Assembly: GCA_021018995.1 (NCBI GenBank)
Contig: CM037593.1
Coordinates: 8,832,088-8,896,087 of the forward strand
DNA: 64,000 bases
Direction: 5' to 3'
Source: Chloranthus sessilifolius
Taxonomy: Eukaryota; Streptophyta; Magnoliopsida; Chloranthales; Chloranthaceae
Shown: in pieces, positions 349 through 54,006 of the stretch
How the letters are laid out: every line of letters starts with the position of its first letter
How positions within the stretch are numbered: position 1 is the first letter of the stretch
The notes under the pieces: generated by a model
Databases searched by the model: none
Told to the model about the DNA's origin: nothing
Seen by the model: only the letters and a program-made list of their open reading frames with translations
Translations under genes and position numbers: made by a program

Positions 349-1548
349 CGGAAGCTTTTGGTCTTCCATTTTTACCTCCATATTTATCAGCACTGAGAGC
401 CCAAGATTATAGAAAAGGAGCCAATTTTGCAGTTGTAGGAGCTACTGCGATGGATACTCCTTATTTTTATGATAGAACAGAAGTAGCAACAAATAGCACT
501 CTTCTAGTTCAACTCGACCGGTTCAAGAAGTTGTTACCTTCTCTATGCTCTACTGAGACAGGTGATTCTCATATCCATTCTCTTTATTTCATTTCTAAGT
601 TAAATAAATAGTCATTCTTTTAAGTAATATATTTGTTAGATCTGCCATCTAATTTGTCTATTTGATTGCCCACTAGATTGCCATGAATATCTAAAGAGAT
701 CGCTACTAGTAGTTGGAGAGATTGGAGAAAGAGATTACAAGTTTACGGGGATTAACACAGATGTGGTTCGTGATGTAGTCAATGTTATCACCCAAACCAT
801 CATGGTAAGAAATCCTCTATTTTGCTATGCTAAATCGATACGTGCTATTTGTTGTCATCACTATTATTAATGAATATAGTTTTTATTTTATTTTCTTTAA
901 TTCCAGGAATTGATTACTATTGGAGCGACTAATATTATGGTGCCTGGGATGTTTCCAATGGGATGTCTTCCATACTATTATGGAAATCCAGCTTTTGTTA
1001 GGGGTAGCGCTCTTGGCATTGATCCCCAAAATGGGTGTCTAAGAGATAAAAATGATCAGGCAGAGTACCACAACACGCTACTCCAATACAATATCCAACT
1101 GCTAAGAGATGTGTATCCCTATGTTAAGATCATGTATGCAGACAACTACAATGCAGCCATGCGTTTATTCAACAACCCTATTCAATATGGTAAGCTTTGT
1201 TTATAGACTTAATTTTTGAGAATTATAGCGTGCTGCCTCAGAAAGCATTAACATATTCTTCAATTTTGTCATTAATCAGGTTTCTCAAGTGATGTGCTAT
1301 CAGTGTGCTGCGGAGAAAGCGCTGCCAAATTCAACTATGACACAGGGATCGGTCATTGTGGGCAAGGAGGTTTCGTGTGTGACAAGCCAGAATTATTTGT
1401 TAATTGGGATGGAGAGTATTTCAGTGAAGCTGCTTATAAATCGATTGCCTCTGCTCTGATTTTCGAGAATTACACCACCCCTCTATTCAATCAAGACAAC
1501 TTTCGAGGACGTTGCACCATCCCCATATTGAACTCACTTTGCTTCTAA
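349..1548 (+). CDS. GDSL (SGNH) esterase/lipase-like pseudoenzyme, copy 1 (5' partial)
   Basis: Exons 2-5 are visible: 349-561, 677-804, 907-1189 and 1280-1548 (stop TAA). Exon 1 lies left of the window. All introns have GT-AG ends and phases that join in frame. The product belongs to the plant secreted GDSL family (acetylajmalan-esterase-like clade, by motif pattern). The block II glycine region (FAVVGATA) is present. Block III reads GEIGERDY where the family has GEIGGNDY, so the oxyanion Asn is Arg. Block V reads WDGEY where the family has WDGxH, so the catalytic His is Tyr and the Asp is kept. No frameshift is seen in the visible exons. The block I residue cannot be judged here. The family assignment is strong; lack of activity is inferred from the residues. 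Confidence 0.9.
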
Positions 1549-7924: not shown

Positions 7925-8379
7925 AAAAATTTCAAAATAACCCCTGAACTTACACCCCGTTATTAATAACGCACCTAAACTATTAATAATATCAAATGGG
8001 CACTCAAAGTACACTTAAGTTCATCAATTAAACCCCTACTATCACCTTCCGTTAAAGGTTGTTGAGTTGGCAGACAACTCAGCAAAATAGCGTGCGTGGC
8101 ACCCAACATTTTTGTGAGTTTATTAATGACGGGGTGAAAGTTCAGGGGTTATTTTGAAATTTTCCAAAGCCAAGTCATCGCCAAGTTGCGTGCCGCGCAT
8201 GCTATTTTGCTGAGTTGCTTGCCAACTTAGCGTTTTTCGTTCAACCATTAACGGAAGTTGACGGTAGGGCTTAGTTGATGAACTTAAGTGTACTTTGGAT
8301 AAATATTTGATATTATCAATAGTTTATGTGTGTTATTGATAACGAGGTATAAGTTCAGGGGTTATTTTGAAATTTTTCC
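7925..8379. mobile_element. Foldback element FB-C (AACCCCTGAACTT arms), unit 1
   Basis: The left arm AAATTTCAAAATAACCCCTG through TTCCGTTAA is matched in reverse by the right arm (TTAACGGAAGTTGACGG through GGGGTTATTTTGAAATTT), with a third, inner reverse copy of the terminus at about 8110-8163. Total about 455 bp. The pattern suggests one foldback with an internal terminus duplication or two nested elements. Confidence 0.65.
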
Positions 8380-11349: not shown

Positions 11350-12044
11350 AGAACATCTCCCATTCTTTTTCTCGTTAGAAATTTCATACGTTCCTCTCTG
11401 CTTGCGCTGCACTTCATTTTCTTTACCCTCCCTTCTCCTATCTCAAATTATCAATATGATCTTTATTGGTTTTCGATTTTCTCCTCCAATCTTAGGCTTT
11501 ATAGTTCTTCTTCTCATATTTCATGCTGTGAATGGTTATGAATCAATATTCAATTTCGGGGATGCGTTTTCAGATACGGGAAACTACTTAATTGAGGATT
11601 ATGATTACTCTATTCGGCAGCCCAATATTGGCAAATTACCCTATGGCGAAACCTATTTTAATAGGTCAACAGGCCGCTTCTCTAATGGACGATTAATCAT
11701 TGATTTCATGGGTATGCTTTATAAAGTTTTAGATTAATTATTTTCATATTTCTTTTGATCTTTTAATTTTTTTTTGTCTCGTATATGTCACTAATGAAGA
11801 TAAAGACCTTATAATGGATGAGGTTAAGTGGATTCCTTAAGTACATATAACCGGTTATTTTACTCTGCGTTCCCATATGTTTTTTCTGTTTTCTTTTTGT
11901 AAATGAGTAAACTAGGGTTGAAAATATTGTCAACCTTCCATTCTGCTACAAGACCAAACCCTAGTGAGTAGTGACTCAATTGACTTGATGAATCTTCCGT
12001 TTGGATGTCCTATGAACCATGGTTAAACAAATAGGGCTATGAGC

Positions 12045-12310
12045 ATGGTATCAAGTCTCAGTCGATACTGGTACGTATCGGCAGTAGTATTGATTTTTGT
12101 AAACTGAGATGCTAATACCGCCCCGAAAGCATTATCGGGGTGGTATCAGTGTCAGTATCGGTTTCAGACCGATACGGGTCTGTATGGGCCGATACTGTCT
12201 CGGTATAGGCCCATGCTGACCAATAAAAAATTAAATTTGTGTTTATCTTTCAAAAAAAATTATACTGGCAGAGGCTGACACCCTTTAACGATACCGAGTT
12301 TGATACCTTG
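12045..12310. repeat. TATCGG-rich element in intron 1 of GDSL copy 2
   Basis: Begins ATGGTATCAAGTCTCAGTCG and ends GAGTTTGATACCTTGG, so GGTATCAA and TTGATACC form short inverted ends around CGATAC/GTATCGG-rich sequence. Copies 3-5 carry it with a deletion of about 25 bp near the right end. A TIR origin is an inference. Confidence 0.5.
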
Positions 12311-12625
12311 GTTTTGAGACTGCTCACTTGCAGCTCATGATAGGAACATCTTTGATCAATTAACGCAATTGGTCTATCAGCTCATTATTGGCATGTCTCA
12401 ACAGAAAATCATGCTTACCAAAGCATTAGAATTTTAGAATCATCAATCGATGTAGGGCTTTCAACAAATTGGGTCTCGCAAAAATTTTGGTTGCCCAGGG
12501 TATGTCCAACCCGACCTGATGGGTCAACGGTATGTACTTGATCAACCCAAAAACTCAACCCAACTTGACGCTCGACCAAAATACCCTCTTATTATTCATG
12601 TTTTTTATATAAAATATTGGGCTGG

Positions 12626-12648
12626 GCTGGGCTGGGCTAACCCGACCT
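12626..12648 (+). repeat. (GGGCT)n in intron 1
   Basis: TTGGGCTGGGCTGGGCTGGGCTAAC in copies 2 and 3. Copies 4 and 5 have one repeat fewer, and copy 1 (about position 100) has lost the tract. It lies in a CCCGACC/GGGTC-rich stretch. Confidence 0.85.
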
Positions 12649-14474
12649 GACCCAACCAGAAATTAGGGTCAGATGCTTCATGCCCGACCCGATGGGTCAA
12701 GTTTATGTTCCCAAACCAATAAAAAATTTGAATCAGGCTGACCAGCAGGGCCTGTTCTGCAAGTAGGTCCTATTCCTATTAATTAATCCTTTATTGTGAA
12801 AATATTAGTTTATTTGGTTCCAACTTCCAAGTAATATAGGAACAAAGAACCACAATGTAAGTGCTAATATAATATGTCATTTTAAATTTTCAGCGGAAGC
12901 TTTTGGTCTTCCATTTTTACCTCCATATTTATCAGCACTGAGAGCCCAAGATTATAGAAAAGGAGCCAATTTTGCAGTTGTAGGAGCTACTGCGATGGAT
13001 ACTCCTTATTTTTATGATAGAACAGAAGTAGCAACAAATAGCACTCTTCTAGTTCAACTCGACCGGTTCAAGAAGTTGTTACCTTCTCTATGCTCTACTG
13101 AGACAGGTGATTCTCATATCCATTCTCTTTATTTCATTTCTAAGTTAAATAAATAGTCATTCTTTTAAGTAATATATTTGTTAGATCTGCCATCTAATTT
13201 GTCTATTTGATTGCCCACTAGATTGCCATGAATATCTAAAGAGATCGCTACTAGTAGTTGGAGAGATTGGAGAAAGAGATTACAAGTTTACGGGGATTAA
13301 CACAGATGTGGTTCGTGATGTAGTCAATGTTATCACCCAAACCATCATGGTAAGAAATCCTCTATTTTGCTATGCTAAATCGATACGTGCTATTTGTTGT
13401 CATCACTATTATTAATGAATATAGTTTTTATTTTATTTTCTTTAATTCCAGGAATTGATTACTATTGGAGCGACTAATATTATGGTGCCTGGGATGTTTC
13501 CAATGGGATGTCTTCCATACTATTATGGAAATCCAGCTTTTGTTAGGGGTAGCGCTCTTGGCATTGATCCCCAAAATGGGTGTCTAAGAGATAAAAATGA
13601 TCAGGCAGAGTACCACAACACGCTACTCCAATACAATATCCAACTGCTAAGAGATGTGTATCCCTATGTTAAGATCATGTATGCAGACAACTACAATGCA
13701 GCCATGCGTTTATTCAACAACCCTATTCAATATGGTAAGCTTTGTTTATAGACTTAATTTTTGAGAATTATAGCGTGCTGCCTCAGAAAGCATTAACATA
13801 TTCTTCAATTTTGTCATTAATCAGGTTTCTCAAGTGATGTGCTATCAGTGTGCTGCGGAGAAGACGTTGCAAAATTCTACTATGACACAGGGATCGGTCA
13901 TTGTGGGCAAGGAGGTTTCGTGTGACAAGCCAGACTTATTTGTTAAGTGGGATGGAGAGTATTTCAGTGAAGCTGCTTATAAATCGATTGCCTCTGCTCT
14001 GATTTTCGAGAATTACACCACCCCTCTATTCAATCAAGACAACTTTCGAGGACGTTGCACCATCCCCATATTGAACTCACTTTGCTTCTAATAAGTGGCT
14101 TGTTCTGTTTTTTTTTTTTTTTTCACTTTGTACTCCATTTTGTTTGTAAGTACTATATGATAGATTTTGCAATTAGCATGCATTCTGTTTTTTTGCATGT
14201 TTTTTGTTTCCTTTTAGTAAAATTATGTACAAATGTCTACATGCTTTTCATGGTAGGGAGACAATAATTTCTAATTGATTATTGCTTAGCATGTAAGGAT
14301 GAACGATGGAATCGAGATCGTCCATTATTGCACTCGATGAATGGAAACACTATTTTAAAAGTTATGGATTAATTGAGTGCCACCACACCCATAGATAAAA
14401 CGCCGCAAGTAAATTCTAATCATTTCCATCAGTCCTAGAGTTAATACATTGGAATTTTTTTAAATTTTTTTTTT

Positions 14475-20100: not shown

Positions 20101-20454
20101 TTGAATATATCTAGGGGAACTTCGGGCCAAGCTTAGACTCACTGCATTAAACCCATCCCATTTACTAATTCAGTAGGTATTATTACTTAAACAAGGCCTT
20201 GGGTCTCAACACTAATCCTAAACTTAAAATTGGCTACAAGTACAGTGGAGCTTAATTAATGCAGGTCGGTGCTCAACTAGTGCAGCCAATCACGTCGCGC
20301 CACGTCAGCCGCTTGCACTTTGTCTGCATCAAATTTGTCCACCGTTTATAATTTTCCTTAGATAAATGTGTCACGTAAGGGCTGGCTGGGGTCAACCTCA
20401 TTCGACCCTAGGTCCTCAAGGCTGCCATATAGTTAGCTCTATGCCGGGACTGAA

Positions 20455-20909
20455 AAAATTTCAAAATAACCCCTGAACTTACACCCCGTTATTAATAACG
20501 CACCTAAACTATTAATAATATCAAATGGGCACTCAAAGTACACTTAAGTTCATCAATTAAACCCCTACTGTCACCTTCCGTTAAAGGTTGTTGAGTTGGC
20601 AGACAACTCAGCAAAATAGCGTGCGTGGCACCCAACATTTTTGTGAGTTTATTAATGACGGGGTGAAAGTTCAGGGGTTATTTTGAAATTTTCCAAAGCC
20701 AAGTCATCGCCAAGTTACGTGCCGCGCATGCTATTTAGCTGAGTTCCTTGCCAACTTAGCGTTTTTCGTTCAACCATTAACGGAAGTTGACGGTAGGGCT
20801 TAGTTGATGAACTTAAGTGTACTTTGGGTGAATATTTGATATTATCAATAGTTTATGTGTGTTATTGATAACGAGGTATAAGTTCAGGGGTTATTTTGAA
20901 ATTTTTCCT
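20455..20909. mobile_element. Foldback element FB-C, unit 2
   Basis: Same structure as at 7925. Confidence 0.63.
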
Positions 20910-23974: not shown

Positions 23975-26582
23975 ATGATCTTTATTGGTTTTCGATTTTC
24001 TCCTCCAATCTTAGGCTTTATAGTTCTTCTTCTCATATTTCATGCTGTGAATGGTTATGAATCAATATTCAATTTCAGGATGCGTTTTCAGATACGGGAA
24101 ACTACTTAATTGAGGATTATGATTACTCTATTCGGCAGCCCAATATTGGCAAATTACCCTATGGCGAAACCTATTTTAATAGGTCAACAGGCCGCTTCTC
24201 TAATGGACGATTAATCATTGATTTCATGGGTATGCTTTATAAAGTTTTAGATTAATTATTTTCATATTTCTTTTGATCTTTTAATTTTTTTTTGTCTCGT
24301 ATATGTCACTAATGAAGATAAAGACCTTATAATGGATGAGGTTAAGTGGATTCCTTAAGTACATATAACCGGTTATTTTACTCTGCGTTCCCATATGTTT
24401 TTTCTGTTTTCTTTTTGTAAATGAGTAAACTAGGGTTGAAAATATTGTCAACCTTCCATTCTGCTACAAGACCAAACCCTAGTGAGTAGTGACTCAATTG
24501 ACTTGATGAATCTTCCGTTTGGATGTCCTATGAACCATGGTTAAACAAATAGGGCTATGAGCATGGTATCAAGTCTCAGTCGATACTGGTACGTATCGGC
24601 AGTAGTATTGATTTTTGTAAACTGAGATGCTAATACCGCCCCGAAAGCATTATCGGGGTGGTATCAGTGGCAGCATCGGGTTCAGACCGACGGGTCTGTA
24701 TGGGCCGATACTGTCTCGGTATAGGCCCATGCTGACCAATAAAAATTAAATTTGTGTTTATCTTTCAAAAAAAAATATACTGGCAGAGGCTGATACCTTG
24801 GTTTTGAGACTGCTCACTTGCAGCTCATGATAGGAACATCTTTGATCAATTAACGCAATTGGTCTATCAGCTCATTATTGGCATGTCTCAACAGAAAATC
24901 ATGCTTACCAAAGCATTAGAATTTTAGAATCATCAATCGATGTAGGGCTTTCAACAAATTGGGTCTCGCAAAAATTTTGGTTGCCCAGGGTATGTCCAAC
25001 CCGACCTGATGGGTCAACGGTATGTACTTGATCAACCCAAAAACTCAACCCAACTTGACGCTCGACCAAAATACCCTCTTATTATTCATGTTTTTTATAT
25101 AAAATATTGGGCTGGGCTGGGCTGGGCTAACCCGACCTGACCCAACCAGAAATTAGGGTCAGATGCTTCATGCCCGACCTGATGGGTCAAGTTTATGTTC
25201 CCAAACCAATAAAAATTTGAATCAGGCTGACCAGCATGGCCTATTCTACAAGTAGGTCCTATGCCTATTAATTAATCCTTTATTGTGAAAATATTAGTTT
25301 ATTTGGTTCCAACTTCCAAGTAATATAGGAACAAAGAACCACAATGTAAGTGCTAATATAATATGTCATTTTAAATTTTCAGCGGAAGCTTTTGGTCTTC
25401 CATTTTTACCTCCTTATTTATTAGCACTGAGAGCCCAAGATTATAGAAAAGGAGCCAATTTTGCAGTTGTAGGAGCTACAGCAATGGATACTCCTTATTT
25501 TTATGATAGAACAGAAGTAGCAACAAATAGCGCTCTTCTAGTTCAACTCGACCGGTTCAAGAAGTTGTTACCTTCTCTATGCTCTACTGAGACAGGTGAT
25601 TCTCATATCCATTCTCTTTATTTCATTTCTAAGTTAAATAAATAGTCATTCTTTTAAGTAATATATTTGTTAGATCTGCCATCTAATTTGTCTATTTGAT
25701 TGCCCACTAGATTGCCATGAATATCTAAAGAGATCGCTACTAGTAGTTGGAGAGATTGGAGAAAGAGATTACAAGTTTATGGGGATTAACACAGATGTGG
25801 TTCGTGATGTAGTCAATGTTATCACCCAAACCATCATGGTAAGAAATCCTCTATTTTGCTATGCTAAATCGATACGTGCTATTTGTTGTTATCACTATTA
25901 TTAATGAATATAGTTTTTATTTTATTTTCTTTAATTCCAGGAATTGATTACTATTGGAGCGACTAATATTATGGTGCCTGGGATGTTTCCAATGGGATGT
26001 CTTCCATACTATTATGGAAATCCAGCTTTTGTTAGCGGTAGCGCTCTTGGCATTGATCCCCAAAATGGGTGTCTAAGAGATAAAAATGAACAGGCAGAGT
26101 ACCACAACACGCTACTCCAATACAATATCCAACTGCTAAGAGATGTGTATCCCTATGTTAAGATCATGTATGCAGACAACTACAATGCAGCCATGCGTTT
26201 ATTCAACAACCCTATTCAATATGGTAAGCTTTGTTTATAGACTTAATTTTTGAGAATTATAGTGTGCTGCCTCAGAAAGCATTAACATATTCTTCAATTT
26301 TATCATTAATCAGGTTTCTCAAGTGATGTGCTATCTGTGTGCTGCGGAGAAACCGTTGCAAAATTCAACTATGACACAGGGATCGGTCATTGTGGGCAAG
26401 GAGGTTTCGTGTGTGACAAGCCAGAGTTATTTGTTAATTGGGATGGAGAGTATTTCAGTGAAGCTGCTTATAAATCGATTGCCTCTGCTCTGATTTTCGA
26501 GAATTACACCACCCCTCTATTCAATCAAGACAACTTTCGAGGACGTTGCATCATCCCCATATTGAACTCGCTTTGCTTCTAA
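23975..26582 (+). pseudogene. GDSL esterase-like copy 3, frameshifted in exon 1
   Basis: Exons: 23975-24229, 25383-25595, 25711-25838, 25941-26223 and 26314-26582. Where the other copies read TTCGGGGATGCG, this copy reads TTCAGGATGCG (24074-24084). One base is lost inside the block I motif and the frame ends at TGA/TAA-type stops by 24109, after about 44 codons. Exons 2-5 remain fully open, with GERD in block III and WDGEY in block V. Protein-level differences from the other copies include LLALRAQ for LSALRAQ, FMG for FTG after block III, and CIIPIL for CTIPIL near the C-terminus. Promoter and TATA box are the same as in the intact copies, so a non-coding transcript is likely. Confidence 0.88.
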
Positions 26583-32766: not shown

Positions 32767-33221
32767 AAAAATTTTAAAATAACCCCTGAACTTGCACCCC
32801 GTTATTAATAACGCACCTAAACTATTAATAATATCAAATGGGCACTCAAAGTACACTTAAGTTCATCAATTAAACCCCTACCATCACCTTCCGTTAAAGG
32901 TTGTTGAGTTGGCAGACAACTTAGCAAAATAGAGTGCGTGGCACCCAACATTTTTGTGCGTTTATTAATGACGGGGTGAAAGTTCAGGGGTTATTTTGAA
33001 ATTTTCCAAAGCCAAGTCATCGCCAAGTTGCGTGCCGCGCATGCTATTTTGCTGAGTTGCTTGCCAACTTAGCGTTTTTCGTTCAACCATTAACGGAAGT
33101 TGACGGTAGGGCTTAGTTGATGAACTTAAGTGTACTTTGGGTGAATATTTGATATTACCAATAGTTTATGTGTGTTATTGATAACGAGGTATAAGTTCAG
33201 GGGTTATTTTGAAAATTTTCC
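32767..33221. mobile_element. Foldback element FB-C, unit 3
   Basis: Same structure as at 7925, with a few changes in the arms. Confidence 0.63.

Positions 33222-35781: not shown

Positions 35782-35839
<58 letters not shown>
35782..35839. repeat. (TA)n tract upstream of GDSL copy 4
   Basis: 58 bp of alternating AT in the same place as before copy 2. Confidence 0.97.
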
Positions 35840-35841
<2 letters not shown>

Positions 35842-36156: not shown

Positions 36157-36164
36157 TATAAATA
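36157..36164 (+). promoter_or_regulatory. TATA box of GDSL copy 4
   Basis: TATAAATA upstream of the ATG at 36271, in the same sequence context as the other copies. Confidence 0.65.
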
Positions 36165-36270: not shown

Positions 36271-38870
36271 ATGATCTTTATTGGTTTTCGATTTTCTCCT
36301 CCAATCTTAGGCTTTATAGTTCTTCTTCTCATATTTCATGCTGTGAATGGTTATGAATCAATATTCAATTTCGGGGATGCGTTTTCAGATACGGGAAACT
36401 ACTTAATTGAGGATTATGATTACTCTATTCGGCAGCCCAATATTGGCAAATTACCCTATGGCGAAACCTATTTTAATAGGTCAACAGGCCGCTTCTCTAA
36501 TGGACGATTAATCATTGATTTCATGGGTATGCTTTATAAAGTTTTAGATTAATTATTTTCATATTTCTTTTGATCTTTTAATTTTTTTTTGTCTCGTATA
36601 TGTCACTAATGAAGATAAAGACCTTATAATGGATGAGGTTAAGTGGATTCCTTAAGTACATATAACCGGTTATTTTACTCTGCGTTCCCATATGTTTTTT
36701 CTGTTTTCTTTTTGTAAATGAGTAAACTAGGGTTGAAAATATTGTCAACCTTCCATTCTGCTACAAGACCAAACCCTAGTGAGTAGTGACTCAATTGACT
36801 TGATGAATCTTCCGTTTGGATGTCCTATGAACCATGGTTAAACAAATAGGGCTATGAGCATGGTATCAAGTCTCAGTCGATACTGGTACGTATCGGCAGT
36901 AGTATTGATTTTTGTAAACTGAGATGCTAATACCGCCCCGAAAGCATTATCGGGGTGGTATCAGTGTCAGTATCGGTTTCAGACCGATACGGGTCTGTAT
37001 GGGCCGATACTGTCTCGGTATAGGCCCATGCTGACCAATAAAAAATTAAATTTGTGTTTATCTTTCAAAAAAAAATATACTGGCAGAGGCTGATACCTTG
37101 GTTTTGAGACTGCTCACTTGCAGCTCATGATAGGAACATCTTTGATCAATTAACGCAATTGGTCTATCAGCTCATTATTGGCATGTCTCAACAGAAAATC
37201 ATGCTTACCAAAGCATTAGAATTTTAGAATCATCAATCGATGTAGGGCTTTCAACAAATTGGGTCTCGCAAAAATTTTGGTTGCCCAGGGTATGTCCAAC
37301 CCGACCTGATGGGTCAACGGTATGTACTTGATCAACCCAAAAACTCAACCCAACTTGACGCTCGACCAAAATACCCTCTTATTATTCATGTTTTTTATAT
37401 AAAATATTGGGCTGGGCTGGGCTAACCCGACCTGACCCAACCAGAAATTAGGGTCAGATGCTTCATGCCCGACCTGATGGGTCAAGTTTATGTTCCCAAA
37501 CCAATAAAAAATTTGAATCAGGCTGACCAGCATGGCCTATTCTACAAGTAGGTCATATTCCTATTAATTAATCCTTTATTGTGAAAATATTAGCTTATTT
37601 GGTTCCAACTTCCAAGTAATATAGGAACAAAGAACCACAATATAAGTGCTAACATAATATGTCATTTGAATTTTTCAGCGGAAGCTTTTGGTCTTCCATT
37701 TTTACCTCCATATTTATCAGCACTGAGAGCCCAAGATTATAGAAAAGGAGTCAATTTTGCAGTTGTAGGAGCCACAGCAATGGATACACCTTATTTTTAT
37801 GATAGAACAGAAGTAGCAACAAATAGCACTCTTCTAGTTCAACTCGACTGGTTCAAGAAGTTGTTACCTTCTCTATGCTCTACTGAGACAGGTGATTCTC
37901 ATATCCGTTCTCTTCATTTCATATCTAAGTTAAATAAATAGTCATTCTTTTAATTTGTTAGATCTGCCATCTAATTTGTCTATTTGATTCCCCACTAGAT
38001 TGTCATGAATATCTAAGGAGATCGCTACTAGTAGTTGGAGAGATTGGAGAAAGAGATTACAAGTTTACGGGGATTAACACAGATGTGGTTCGTGATGTAG
38101 TCAATGTTATCACCCAAACCATCATGGTAAGAAATCCTCTATTTTGCTATGCTAAATCAATAAGTGCTATTTGTTGTTATCACTATTATTAATGAATATA
38201 GTTTTTATTTTATTTTCTTTAATTCCAGGAATTGATTACTATTGGAGCGACTAATATTATGGTGCCTGGGATGTTTCCAATGGGATGTCTTCCATACTAT
38301 TATGGAAATCCAGCTTTTGTTAGCGGTAGCGCTCTTGGCATTGATCCCCAAAATGGGTGTCTAAGAGATAAAAATGATCAGGCAGAGTACCACAACACGC
38401 TACTCCAATACAATATCCAACTGCTAAGAGATGTGTATCCCTATGTTAAGATCATGTATGCAGACAACTACAATGCAGCCATGCGTTTATTCAACAACCC
38501 TATTCAATATGGTAAGCTTTGTTTATAGACTTAATTTTTGAGAATTATAGTGTGCTGCCTCAGAAAGCATTAACATATTCTTCAATTTTGTCATTAATCA
38601 GGTTTCTCAAGTGATGTGCTATCAGTGTGCTGCGGAGAAAGCGCTGCCAAATTCAACTATGACACAGGGATCGGTCATTGTGGGCAAGGAGGTTTCGTGT
38701 GTGACAAGCCAGAATTATTTGTTAATTGGGATGGAGAGTATTTCAGTGAAGCTGCTTATAAATCGATTGCCTCTGCTCTGATTTTCGAGAATTACACCAC
38801 CCCTCTATTCAATCAAGACAACTTTCGAGGACGTTGCACCATCCCCATATTGAACTCACTTTGCTTCTAA
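36271..38870 (+). CDS. GDSL (SGNH) esterase/lipase-like pseudoenzyme, copy 4 (intact frame)
   Basis: Exons: 36271-36526, 37679-37891, 37999-38126, 38229-38511 and 38602-38870. Together they give 382 codons plus TAA, the usual length for secreted plant GDSL enzymes. Exon phases join as ATG G|CG GAA, ACA G|AT TGC, ATG|GAA and TAT G|GT TTC. The signal peptide is residues 1 to about 27. Block I is FGDAFSDTGN (Ala37, family Ser). The block II region is FAVVGATA. Block III is GEIGERDY (Arg175, family Asn). Block V is WDGEYFSEAAY (Asp337 kept, Tyr340 for family His). N-glycosylation-type sequons include NRS in exon 1 and NYT near the C-terminus. The fold is probably kept, but ester hydrolysis by the standard SGNH mechanism should be impossible. 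The frame is intact despite the active-site loss. The ATG was chosen because a signal peptide starts there; an in-frame upstream extension has no ATG. Confidence 0.93.
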
Positions 38871-39261
38871 TAAGTGGCTTGTTCTGTTTTTTTTTTTTTT
38901 TTCACTTTGTACTCCATTTTGTTTGTAAGTACTATATGATAGATTTTACAATTAGCATGCATTCTGTTTTTTTGTATGTTTTTTGTTTCCTTTTAGTAAA
39001 ATTATGTACAAATGTCTACATGCTTTTCATGGTAGGGGAGACAATAATTTCTAATTGATTATTGCTCAGCATGTAAGGATGAACGATGAATTGAGATCGT
39101 CCATTATTGCACTCGATGAATGGAAACACTATTTTAAAAGTTATGGATTAATTGAGTGCCACCCACACCCATAGATAAAAACGCTCGCAAGTAAATTCCC
39201 TAATCATTTCCATCAGTCCTAGAGTTAATACATTGGAATTTTTAAAATTTTTTTTATTTTT

Positions 39262-39411
39262 TTATAACATAGGGTATCCCAAATTTGGGCTTGGACTAAG
39301 CCATATGGGTGACATCGTCCCGTCCCTGCACCTGTTTATCGCAGAGGGGAGTCGTCTTGAACCCGTGACCTTAGGGAGTAAACCCAAGTCACTAAACCGT
39401 TGCGACAACTC
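39262..39411 (-). mobile_element. tRNA-derived SINE, unit 4
   Basis: Same element and position. The tail is interrupted (AAATAAAAAAAATTTT on minus). Confidence 0.7.
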
Positions 39412-39879
39412 TTTTCTGGGTAATAGCATTCGAAAGATAATTTATATTTGGTGAACGGCAACTCTGGCAACTCTTTTCTGGGTAATAGCATTTGAAAGAT
39501 AATTTATAGTTGGTGAACAGGGCTGTGTTCTTAGGGCAGTGCATGGGTCAATTTCTCTCGGCGAAACCGATCAAACCTAGCGAGAGGTACACGCCTCTTT
39601 GACATGGTGTGATTGACCTGTGATCTTAATGCCAGATATTGACTGCACAGGTCATTCTATTAGACTGCACAGCCGTGCAACACTATAGTGGCTCACCAGC
39701 TTCATCAATTGAGATGTATGACAGGCTAACATGTTGATGAACTGAGGTCAAACTTTATGTTGACCAGAAGTTCTAATAATGGCACTTTTTTTGCCTCATT
39801 GTGGCAATGGCAGTCTTTGAGCCGAATTTAGTCCGTGGACACTACAACTTGCAAGGGAGATATATACTGTGGCCTAAAG

Positions 39880-40185
39880 TTTAAAAGGCTTGATATTTCG
39901 GGATTTGTATCTCGTGGAATACCATCTAAGCACCTGTTTTGAAGGCCACGATGTAAATATCTTTGAAGGTAAAATTGACACAAAACATGATCTCTACCAT
40001 CTGATTCGTGAACATAAACTATTGAATCAGATGATGGGGTTTGACTGTGTTGAGTAAGATGATAGAAATCACACTTTGTGCCAATCTTTGACACTACAAA
40101 TCTTTACATTAAGCCTTCAAATCAGAAGACTTAGATGGTGTTCCTCGTGGCAAAGATCCAAAAAATACCAAGTCTTTCTTTTAAA
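39880..40185. mobile_element. Foldback MITE FB-A, unit 4
   Basis: Same element and arm structure as in unit 1. Confidence 0.63.
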
Positions 40186-44490: not shown

Positions 44491-45183
44491 AGAAAACCCA
44501 TCGAATTGATCGTACCCATTTGCAGCCTTAGCTCACATGTACTTTTGTAACATTTAGGGCTGTCAATCGGCCTTGTTAGTTGCGACTTCGTCTAGCTCGG
44601 AATGGGCCTGGTTTGGGCCAAGTTTGTAAGCCCAATTTTTGATTGAGGTAAATTGGGCCCAATTATGCAAACAGGTTGGGTTCGGGTTTGGGCAGCACAG
44701 CCCATCGGGTCCTTGCTATAGGGTTTGCAAACAAGCTCGCCTGGAATCTAGCTTAAAGAATATGTAAACTTGGTTTGAACCAGAATGGAAACCCAACCCA
44801 AGCCTATAAGCTGGGTTCAAACACAAAACTTGGCTTGAATATATCTAGGGGAACTTCGGGCCAAGCTTAGACTCACTGCATTAAACCCATCCCATTTACT
44901 AATTCGGTAGGTATTATTACTTAAACAAGGCCTTGGGTCTTAACATTAATCCTAATCTTAAAATTGGCTACAAGTACAGTGGAGCTTAATTAATGCAGGT
45001 CGGTGCTCAACTAGTGATAATCACGTCACCATCGCCACCGCTTGCACTTTGTCTGCATCAAATTTGTCCACCGTTTATAATTTTCCTTAGATAAATGTGT
45101 CACGTAAGGGCTGGCTGGGGTCAACCTCATTCGACCCTAGGTCCTCAAGGCTGCCATATAGTTAGCTCTATGCCGGGACTGAA

Positions 45184-45638
45184 AAAATTTTAAAATAACC
45201 CCTGAACTTGCACCCCGTTATTAATAACGCACCTAAACTATTAATAATATCAAATGGGCACTCAAAGTACACTTAAGTTCATCAATTAAACCCCTACCAT
45301 CACCTTCCGTTAAAGGTTGTTGAGTTGGCAGACAACTTAGCAAAATAGAGTGCGTGGCACCCAACATTTTTGTGCGTTTATTAATGACGGGGTGAAAGTT
45401 CAGGGGTTATTTTGAAATTTTCCAAAGCCAAGTCATCGCCAAGTTGCGTGCCGCGCATGCTATTTTGCTGAGTTGCTTGCCAACTTAGCGTTTTTCGTTC
45501 AACCATTAACGGAAGTTGATGGTAGGGCTTAGTTGATGAACTTAAGTGTACTTTGGGTGAATATTTGATATTATCAATAGTTTATGTGTGTTATTGATAA
45601 CGAGGTATAAGTTCAGGGGTTATTTTGAAAATTTTCCT
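45184..45638. mobile_element. Foldback element FB-C, unit 4
   Basis: Same structure as at 7925. Confidence 0.63.
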
Positions 45639-51314: not shown

Positions 51315-51552
51315 TAAGTGGCTTGTTCTGTTTTTTTTTTTTTTTTTTACTTTGTACTCCATTTTGTTTGTAAGTACTATATGATAGATTTTACAATTAG
51401 CATGCATTCTGTTTTTTTGTATGTTTTTTGTTTCCTTTTAGTAAAATTATGTACAAATGGCTACATGCTTTTCATGGTAGGGGAGACAATAATTTCTAAT
51501 TGATTATTGCTCAGTCCTTGAGCTAATACATTGGAATTTTTTTTTTTCTTTT

Positions 51553-51697
51553 GTATAACATAGGGTATCCCAAATTTGGGCTTGGACTAAGCCATATGGG
51601 TGACATCGTCCCTACACCTATTTATCGCAGAGGGGAGTCGTCTTGAACCCGTGACCTTAGGGAGTAAACCCAAGTCGCTAAACCGTTGCGACAACTC
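51553..51697 (-). mobile_element. tRNA-derived SINE, unit 5
   Basis: Same element in the terminal unit. It shares the CGTCCCTACACC form with unit 3, so the insertion is older than the whole array. Confidence 0.7.
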
Positions 51698-52164
51698 TTT
51701 TCTGGGTAATAGCATTTGAAAGATAATTTATATTTGGTGAACAAGGCTGTGTTCTTAGGGCAGTGCATGGGTCAATTTCTCTCCGCGAAACCGATCAAAC
51801 CTCGCGGGAGGTACACACCTCTTTGACATGGTGTGATTGACCTGTGATCTTAATGCTAGATATCGATGCACGGGTCATTCTATAAGACTGCACAGCCGTG
51901 CAACACTGTAGTGCACAGGTTATCTATTTTTGTACAGTGGCTCACCAGCTTCATAAATGGAGATGTATGGCAGGCCAACATGTTGATGGATTGAGGTCAA
52001 ACTTTATGTTGGCCAGAAGTTCTAATAAAGGCACTTCATTGTGGCCTCTCCATATGTTATAGCCTCCATTTCAAGGGGGTAAGAATTTCAATGGCAGTCT
52101 GTGAGCTTAATTTAGTCCATGTACACTCCAACTTGCAGGGGAGATTTATACTGTGGCGCAAAGT

Positions 52165-52475
52165 TTAAAAGACTTGATATTTTGGGATTTTTATCTCGTG
52201 GAATACCATCTAAGCATTTGATTTGAAGGCCACGATGTAAATATCTTTGATGGTAAAAATTGGCACGAAACATGATCTCTACCATCTGATTCATGATCAT
52301 AAACCATTGAATCAGATGATAGGGTTTGAATGTGTTGAGTCAGATGTTAGAAATCACACTTTGTGCCAGTCTTTGGCAGTAAAGATCTTTACATTAGGCC
52401 TTCTAATCAGAAGACTTAGATGGTGGAAGTTTCACCTAGCAAAGATCCAAAAAATACCAAGTCTTTCTTTTAAAA
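52165..52475. mobile_element. Foldback MITE FB-A, unit 5
   Basis: Diverged copy. Its arms match each other better than in unit 1 (for example CATCTAAGCATTTGATTTGAAGG against the right arm), so it is closer to the ancestral element. Confidence 0.6.
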
Positions 52476-52655
52476 TTATGTGTCACGGTACAAATCTCAT
52501 GTACAAGTTGTAGCTCCGTTAATCATATGGAACACAATCATTCTAGTTACTCTAGGCTACTCGCTTTCATCCTCAAGCGATTATTGTTGGGTTTGGAAAG
52601 GTGAATTATCACTAGTAAAATAACGTAACATCCTAACTCTTGCTATTTAATGAAA

Positions 52656-52800
52656 AATTATAAATGGTGGACAGTTTTTGATAGACAAGTTTGAAGACTG
52701 CTTATATGACTGACTGTAATGCTTGAGCCCCACTATGTGTGCAGCCAGTCGCGCCATATAAGTTGTCTGTAATATTGTCTATCAAATATTGTCCACTATA
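52656..52800. mobile_element. Short TIR MITE (GTGGACAG family), unit 5, fuller right end
   Basis: This copy keeps a right terminus TTGTCTATCAAATATTGTCC then ACTATA that pairs with the left TATAAATGGTGGACAG. Units 1-4 have lost about 24 bp there, again marking unit 5 as an outgroup. Confidence 0.6.
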
Positions 52801-52853
52801 TAACACTGTCCCTATTTAAGTGCAACTTCCTTTATGTCTTCTAATTGAGTTGG

Positions 52854-53069
52854 CAAGGATCAAAATTTCGGCCAAAATGACCAAAATTTTGATCCAAATT
52901 ATCGGTTTTGGTCCTCACTGAAACGATAATTTGGACCAAAATTTCGATCATATTTTATATGGGACTCAAAATTTTGGCCAAATTATCGGTTTTCGGCCAA
53001 ACTTTTGGCCCAAATTTTCTATTTCGGTCATGCTCGAAACCAAAATTTTTCCCGATATTTTGATCCTTG
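52854..53069. mobile_element. Private 216-bp MITE in unit 5 (CAAGGATC family)
   Basis: Ends CAAGGATCAAAATTTCGG and CCGATATTTTGATCCTTG are inverted repeats. The flanks TGAGTTGG (52846-52853) and AGAGTTGG (53070-53077) form an 8-bp duplication with one change. Units 1-4 have a single AGAGTTGG there (for example in TCTAACTCAAGAGTTGGTAT at about 3117-3136), so the empty site is present in the same window. Confidence 0.85.
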
Positions 53070-53562
53070 AGAGTTGGTATTGGGTACCTAACCGACTCCC
53101 AACCTTTATTGGAGCAAGTCATATATTGGAGGTCATAGGTACATCACTATTGTTCAAGTGTACGGCTTAATGCAAAGGGTCTATTATATAGATATGGTGG
53201 ATAGAAGATTGCTTTAAAATAAAGGGTCTATTTTAAAGATCTGGTGGATAGAAGATTGCATTAAAATATCATCATCTTGTGATTAAAAGTGGTCAAACAC
53301 CTTTAAAGTGAATGGCTAAAACATATTGAGTTTTATATGGTAACCATTTGTTGTAAAGCCGTTTGATTGATATGAATCAATCAAGTTTGTGCCACATGTA
53401 TCTAGTTAGTAAACCGTTCCAATTTAGAAATGGTTTAACCGATTGAGTGGTAGCTCAGTTTATATCCTCCCTCCTTTGTGAGGCTTGAGGTGGTGGGCTC
53501 TAAACTCTACCTTTGTCCAATGATCAAAACAAAAGATAATTCATACAATATTCAACTAGCCT

Positions 53563-53701
53563 TATCCGTTGTAGGGCTTCTTTATTTTTTGTTTTTTATT
53601 TCTTCTCTTTTGTGTAGTTTCTCCTTTTGGTCGACTTCGTATTGTATTTTTCCAACTCCTCGCTTCTTTTTAATACATTCTAATTTACTGATAAAAAATA
53701 A
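53563..53701 (+). mobile_element. LINE fragment, unit 5
   Basis: Diverged version of the same insertion. The left flank has decayed to ATATTCAACTAGCCT while the right flank keeps ATATTCAATACTTGTCT. Confidence 0.7.
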
Positions 53702-53755
53702 ATATTCAATACTTGTCTAATGAAGAAACATCTTTGAAGTTCGATCCCCTTCTTT

Positions 53756-53925
53756 TGTAACGACCCAAAATTCCATTCAATAAACAATAGAATCTTGCGT
53801 TGTTATCCCCATAACCAGGGAGTTATCGTCGAATATCTATCGGCATATTTGCAGGATCCCTACAGGCAAATGCATATCCGATACATCCAATATCTATCGG
53901 CCAATCAAGCCAATATATATTCAAG

Positions 53926-54006
<81 letters not shown>

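Follow-up and report, generated by a model that had tools for sequence, protein, structure and literature searches.

GDSL proteins that have lost catalytic residues are known from several plants. ERMO3/MVP1/GOLD36 of Arabidopsis (At1g54030) is described as a vacuole-targeted GDSL pseudoenzyme, and the mutant is still complemented by a version of ERMO3/MVP1 into which the authors introduced a Ser; its role is therefore taken, in the passages of that report used here, to be independent of activity (PMC3498303). In a survey of the family in six plants, sequences with a mutated catalytic site or a missing block are called likely pseudoenzymes. The 46 motif-mutated sequences of its consulted sections divide into 41 that miss a block and five with catalytic-site mutations, three of which have one change and two of which have two (PMC4757993). 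The contribution of the single residues has been probed in a bacterial SGNH lipase, where, in the data excerpted here, Ser10Ala, Asn82Ala, and His216Ala each abolish activity and Gly54Ala does not (PMC10779480). Pieces of host genes can moreover be carried by Pack-CACTA elements, which the consulted part of their description characterizes by CACTA-type termini and by host gene pieces that sometimes derive from several loci (PMC8903248).

The window analyzed here is the whole stretch C10:8832088-8896087 (64 kb) of a genome of 2.17 Gb, that of a plant to judge by the gene family and the arrangement of its introns, and the same genome served as main source of paralogues. We consider it rather probable that the genes in this window belong to an old, constrained GDSL pseudoenzyme lineage that lost its catalytic residues stepwise, was kept by selection, and probably encodes a secreted binding protein.

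Results

A tandem array of five GDSL genes

The window holds five tandem units with a spacing of 12.3-12.5 kb, each containing one five-exon GDSL gene (Table 1). In the whole-genome protein search, at least five exon 1 copies fall at this locus among the matches listed, that of copy 3 being divided by its frameshift; thus, the array appears to comprise five genes. Copy 4, the main gene, scores 74.3 bits against Pfam PF00657 (cut-off 23.6), with residues 31-353 covering the whole profile, and is by homology a member of the GDSL esterase/lipase family. The earlier sequence-only reading numbered the residues of this protein correctly, but its start at position 36376 falls inside exon 1, the ATG lying at 36271. 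It further stated that all copies showing the catalytic positions agree there and that two of them, copies 4 and 5, are intact. The agreement holds, but copy 1 is open as well, so that three of the five copies have open frames and two (2 and 3) are frameshifted, and copy 3 is without an in-frame block I. Spliced with its exon 1, which lies upstream of the window, copy 1 reads as an open frame of 382 residues with four differences from copy 4.

By eye, the TATAAATA box found before copy 4 is also seen upstream of all five array copies and of L027, a single gene on C2. Scans of the window for tRNAs and Rfam families gave no matches, and Pfam searches with ten other open reading frames (nine in the window, one in an element) gave none above cut-off. 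Four units contain an inverted repeat with 111-nt arms that are 86-89% complementary and 231 nt apart (7925-8377, 20454-20906, 32767-33219, and 45183-45635). A TA-dinucleotide tract lies at 35800-35840, ~430 bp ahead of the start of copy 4, and a similar run appears in a translated open reading frame upstream of copy 5.

Table 1. Features of the array, of the altered active site, and of the segments shared with dispersed elements (window positions unless a chromosome is named).
Feature	Position	Strand	Basis or remark
GDSL copy 1, exon 1	C10:8831024-8831279, upstream of window (L048)		copy 4 exon 1 identical; GT donor
GDSL copy 1, exons 2-5	349..1548 (349-561, 677-804, 907-1189, 1280-1548)	+	open frame, splice sites
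GDSL copy 2, five exons	11456..14091	+	2-nt deletion in exon 5, frameshift
GDSL copy 3, five exons	23975..26582	+	1-nt deletion within block I (exon 1), frameshift
GDSL copy 4 (main gene), five exons, 382 aa	36271..38870	+	open frame
Copy 4 exons	36271-36526, 37679-37891, 37999-38126, 38229-38511, 38602-38870	+	GT-AG introns
GDSL copy 5, five exons, 382 aa	48715..51314	+	open frame
TATAAATA box	36157..36164, 114 bp upstream of copy 4 ATG	+	read by eye
Ala37 codon, block I nucleophile position (FGDA for FGDS)	36379..36381	+	copy 4 gene model, paralogue comparison
Exon 3, block III GEIGERDYK (Glu174-Arg175 for Gly-Asn)	37999..38126	+	paralogue comparison
Exon 5, block V WDGEYFSEAAY (Tyr340 for His; Asp337 kept)	38602..38870	+	paralogue comparison
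Exons 2-5 with ~1.15 kb downstream	37564..40025	+	same two boundaries at L019-L023 (C10, C15, C8, C3, C1)
End of exon 4 to exon 5	~38353..38868	+	near-identical boundaries at three sites, L024-L026, second element kind

Nucleophile, oxyanion Asn, and base are replaced

The residue scan of paralogues covered 18 loci, one being copy 1 itself and two (L008 and L041) forming a single gene. Where the blocks are covered, the paralogues in this genome read FGDS, GEIGGNDYN (GANDY in the C9 gene), and WDG(I/V)HLT, while exon-by-exon comparison gives FGDA, GEIGERDYK, and WDGEYFS for the window gene. Among intact paralogues, the block I Ser is present in all 11 distinct genes with a block I match, the block III Asn in 4/4, and the block V His in 5/5. 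These comparisons bear out the earlier assignment of Ala37 to the Ser position and of Tyr340 to the His position, with Asp337 kept. For block III, which had been read as GERD for GGND, Arg175 is correct, but the change spans two residues, Gly174-Asn175 having become Glu-Arg. The block II Gly (NFAVVGATAM) is retained in all five copies; thus, of the residues of a catalytic hydrolase checked in the window gene, Ser, Asn, and His are absent, and the block II Gly and the block V Asp are present.

Searching the PDB with phmmer returned three distant matches with weak whole-sequence E values of 0.004-0.1. In two of them (5xtu and 8a24) the block I Ser aligns with Ala37, and the 8hwo chain has Ala there; the block V His aligns with Tyr340 in 5xtu and 8hwo, in a further aligned segment that by itself falls short of significance. 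None of the three is of use for block III.

The window protein is altered at three of the positions (Ser, Asn, and His) tested in the consulted section of PMC10779480. Because of that mutagenesis of a bacterial relative, we infer by analogy that the protein should not hydrolyze esters, its nucleophile, oxyanion Asn, and base all being gone.

Family members across the genome

Exon 5, used as a nucleotide query, gave 28 matches, five of them in the array; two matches on C16 represent one place. We analyzed 20 regions around the further exon 5 matches and left out two short ones (C6:149.82 Mb and C10:42.29 Mb). Other exon-level matches were likewise left out, for example at C10:92.57 Mb, C10:100.74 Mb, and C14:20.54 Mb, and counts from the whole-genome protein search are lower bounds.

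L027 is full-length, has an open frame, and contains one GC-AG intron. The same lineage forms another tandem array (L031-L034) at C2:3262500-3343000, with four copies ~22-25 kb apart, and the block V His is retained in all four. Open frames, with larger in-frame deletions, are found in L033 and L034; exon 1 of L032 is frameshifted, and L031 is without one intron donor. On C7, L038 carries a large deletion in exon 5 followed by a frameshift, and six loci (L028, L029, L030, L035, L036, and L037) are other partial or decayed copies. Thus, there are at least six intact genes, namely copies 1, 4, and 5 together with L033 and L034 in the two arrays, and L027 at a single locus.

The active-looking paralogues (L039, L040, L042, and a cluster on C13) display the motifs GEIGGNDY and WDGIHLTEAAY; we take their subfamily to be of the At1g28600 type. 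A tblastn search against plasmids returned four distant matches at 23-27% identity, presumably in cyanobacterial genera, which were of no help in placing the lineage.

Ser and Gly-Asn were probably lost before His

Across the family, the block III Glu-Arg occurs in 19 of the 20 rows covering the site, the exception being L035 with GKID. Block I reads Ala in 10 of 11 covering rows (copy 3 read across its frameshift) and Val in L038, and Ser in none. Block V is divided: among 25 rows, Tyr is found in 17 and His in six (L031-L034 on C2, L035 on C1, and L038 on C7), the remainder being a stop in L025 and a Phe in L036, whose match extends past the homologous part.

The codon table comprised 34 sequences, that is, 29 loci and the five copies, with L001-L008 left out and L048 contributing exon 1 of copy 1. 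The tree and the branch models exclude nine loci (L024, L025, L026, L028, L036, L037, L041, L043, and L047), and L044, L045, and L046 were joined by their position into one inferred active C13 gene, which gave 23 rows. Stop codons were treated as gaps, sequence inserted with respect to copy 4 was removed, and codons flanking frameshifts were merged from separate tblastn pieces. In the nucleotide tree of these 23 sequences, the pseudoenzyme clade is monophyletic with respect to four active genes (support 100), and neither L038 (support 68 for its position) nor the group of L031-L035 falls within the array lineage. The amino acid tree recovers the same clade with a different, weakly supported inner order.

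On the simplest history, Ser and Gly-Asn would have been lost before the clade diversified, and His would have changed to Tyr later, on the branch from which the array, L027, and the fragments descend. As the older paralogues are likewise without the Ser and nearly all have Glu-Arg, yet six of them keep the His, inactivation appears to have been stepwise and older than the array. The founder gene had already been proposed to be non-catalytic before amplification. This is upheld by the Ser loss and the Gly-Asn change, which are common to the C2 and C7 paralogues that split earlier, and the inactivation consequently predates what had been proposed. The loss of His after Ser and Asn, and the genome-wide dispersal of the family, lay beyond the view of that reading.

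The lineage has been constrained since the losses

Between copy 4 and L033, both intact, pairwise codon likelihood gives an omega of 0.31 (2dlnL 43.4 versus omega 1), and comparisons of copy 4 with L038, L031, L032, and L034 give 0.30-0.32 (2dlnL 38-47). All of these divergences postdate the Ser and Gly-Asn losses on the simplest history. The branch models concur, with an omega of 0.33 on the backbone of the clade (2dlnL 52.8 versus 1) and of 0.42 on tips that are already broken (2dlnL 29.9). Active paralogues evolve at an omega of 0.21, compared with which the backbone is less constrained (2dlnL 5.8). Captured fragments of the gene, which provide a roughly neutral control, reach 0.80, a value not different from 1 (2dlnL 0.94) and different from the backbone (2dlnL 11.2), although this control is imperfect, as the fragment pair L021-L023 has an omega of 0.44 (2dlnL 4.7). 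On its own branch, L027 has an omega of 0.55, not significantly below 1 (2dlnL 2.5), and for the long stem leading to the clade the estimate is 0.12, near saturation.

The pattern of indels was also compared. All coding indels relative to copy 4 are multiples of three in L027 (2/2) and in L033 (4/4), while introns 2-4 in the same comparisons contain indels of many sizes. Judged by codon substitution, the lineage is under purifying selection after the catalytic losses. Among five family members, the former catalytic blocks are conserved at 28 of 45 columns versus 139 of 239 for the rest. The blocks are thus no clearly better conserved than the remainder, so that protection extends to the whole protein and not visibly to the old pocket, and a repurposed pocket is without direct support from block conservation.

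The array today

The dN/dS comparison that the sequence-only reading had proposed gives a divided answer: the lineage is constrained, but for the array itself omega is 0.51, not significantly different from 1 (2dlnL 3.7), and selection is not demonstrable there. Consequently, its preference for a pseudoenzyme over a dead family stands for the lineage, on the backbone omega and the frame-keeping indels of L027 and L033, but not for selection in the array now. A minor yet appreciable chance goes to the possibility that the lineage was once a functional pseudoenzyme and that the array is now dying and effectively neutral, its number being maintained by unequal exchange and copies 1, 4, and 5 being open through their youth. 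Consistent with this, the array omega is inseparable from that of the captured fragments (2dlnL 1.2), but it is equally inseparable from that of the constrained backbone (2dlnL 1.5). In seven of ten copy pairs, divergence is higher in exons than in introns (for example, 1.39% and 1.31% between copies 2 and 4), and frameshifts are present in two of the five copies. Against it, introns outdiverge exons in pairs 1-4 (2.68% versus 1.01%) and 1-5 (2.34% versus 1.57%), exon 1 and intron 1 being excluded from the pairs with copy 1; all exons and splice sites are kept in three of the five copies, and the same box precedes every copy. For copies 4 and 5, exon and intron divergence are 0.52% and 0.55%.

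Identity between copies 1 and 2 (349-1548 and 12894-14091) is mosaic, introns 2-4 being identical while part of exon 5 differs by 3.5% and a bin further downstream by 11.5%, which suggests gene conversion or unequal exchange.

The region 3′ of copy 5 (51315-54000) differs from the flank of copy 4 by ~4-11% per 200-base bin, with two bins above 40%. This downstream flank is more diverged than the other units are among themselves, as at an old array edge.

Catalysis through other residues

We regard it as very improbable that the protein is still an enzyme, acting through other residues such as Ser39, two positions after Ala37, or catalyzing another reaction. Ser39 is shared by all five family members compared, whereas the four intact paralogues aligned have Ala and the C9 paralogue has Thr at this position; furthermore, Asp337 is kept, and the older paralogues retain the His. 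However, 5xtu and 8a24 carry Ser both at the nucleophile position and at +2 (FGDSLSD), which makes Ser39 look like an ordinary neighbor and a replacement nucleophile unlikely. In addition, the oxyanion Asn has become Arg, the array lineage is without the block V His, and the single loss of Ser, Asn, or His abolishes activity of the bacterial relative in the mutagenesis excerpted here (PMC10779480).

Fragments dispersed by CACTA-type elements

Elements with shared boundaries carry fragments of the gene in eight of the 20 regions, five being of one kind and three of another (Table 1). The fragments of the first kind (L019-L023) sit inside larger shared elements, which exceed 10 kb in L019 and L021. 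Three of these five (L019, L021, and L023) have a common end base with different, unrelated DNA beyond it, and their right terminus, read on the other strand, is CACTAC(G/A)TGAAAATAACACATAAACC. A similar CACTA-type terminus is found in two of the three elements of the second kind (L025 and L026) and in L036. The end is absent from view in L020, owing to a run of N, and in L022 and L024, which diverge before reaching it. With up to two mismatches, the terminal 26-mer occurs 98 times in the genome versus zero for its reversed control. Neither a left element end nor a 3-bp target-site duplication was found within the stretches analyzed. Most simply, these dispersed elements are Pack-CACTA, a known kind, of which the right terminus alone is seen. 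Capture by Helitrons, an alternative source for the dispersed copies, was rejected, since three copies end at the same CACTA-type terminus. Upstream in L024 and L026, an open stretch reads RTRISDR(I/T)RKLQELVPNMDK, which we assume to be bHLH-like.

The captured fragments account for the dispersal and for the roughly neutral control, and they are not taken as the functional part of the family. That the gene copies as a whole have been transposon passengers without host function since the Ser loss is scarcely credible: the carriage of fragments in those eight regions, with the CACTA-type end in 3/5 and 2/3 of the two kinds, points in this direction, but the fragments in elements are without exon 1 or more, and the larger of the two sets evolves near-neutrally, while full-length copies outside elements are constrained and keep their frame, and the backbone omega disfavors it.

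Discussion

The preferred reading of an old, non-catalytic lineage under selection would unfold as follows. First, Ser would have changed to Ala and Gly-Asn to Glu-Arg in a plant GDSL lineage; then, in the branch that produced the window array, Tyr would have taken the place of His, with purifying selection retaining the non-catalytic protein. The product would most likely be a secreted or vacuolar protein of SGNH fold that acts by binding, its old ester pocket, re-lined with Glu-Arg and Tyr, holding a ligand or partner protein without cleavage. The lineage would now be amplifying and partly decaying. By eye, the N-terminus is hydrophobic in the window protein, L027, and L033, which suggests entry into the secretory pathway. 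With hydrolysis predicted to be lost, the protein would most likely act by binding, and ERMO3/MVP1 offers a precedent; the binding, inhibitor, or scaffold role proposed in the sequence-only reading is a hypothesis.

A bolder form of the preferred reading, which we put forward as unlikely, is that an esterase fold has been turned stepwise into a secreted binding family, in which Glu-Arg, in place of the oxyanion hole, would hold a charged or acyl ligand without cleavage, with selection continuing after catalysis died and the genome keeping intermediate and dismantled forms alongside its six or more intact genes.

One genome here presents a graded series: the intact enzyme, the form with Ser and Asn lost and His kept, and the form with all three lost. 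Both non-catalytic stages are represented by intact genes, and the pieces of the gene carried in elements serve as a built-in, roughly neutral control. Together, these make usually vague questions testable, namely whether a dead enzyme is kept for a job and in which order its residues are lost. They also carry a warning, as annotation by fold could call the five copies esterases, none of which has a complete active site.

How the locus relates to described systems can be stated for each of them. Like ERMO3/MVP1, for which a kept cellular role is described in the passages used here (PMC3498303; PMC4757993), the window lineage is a plant GDSL protein without the block I Ser. The two differ in that ERMO3/MVP1 is described there with one catalytic change, Ser to Gly, while in the window lineage Ser, Asn, and His are all gone; unlike ERMO3/MVP1, the lineage forms two tandem arrays, and the two are compared by description, not as orthologues. 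To myrosinase-associated proteins, the likeness of the window protein is one of analogy.

The active-looking paralogues (L039, L040, L042, and the C13 cluster) share 41-56% protein identity over the aligned part, homologous exon segments, and the WDGxHLT C-terminal region with the window gene. They differ in that Ser, Asn, and His are intact wherever covered, and their activity is presumed.

The dispersed fragments resemble Pack-CACTA, as described in the consulted part of PMC8903248, in combining a CACTA-type end with a host gene piece, and differ from it in that the right terminus alone is seen and the gene from which the piece derives codes for a pseudoenzyme.

In the open-access papers listed, in some cases the best 15-20 of up to 232 and a scope outside which most subscription papers fall, no lineage was found in which Ser, Asn, and His have all been replaced. 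In the consulted sections of the six-plant survey, a triple catalytic change is unmentioned among the mutants, while the window lineage has three (PMC4757993). Thus, GDSL pseudoenzymes as such are already known; what is new, relative to the parts of these sources used here, is a lineage in which three catalytic residues have been replaced.
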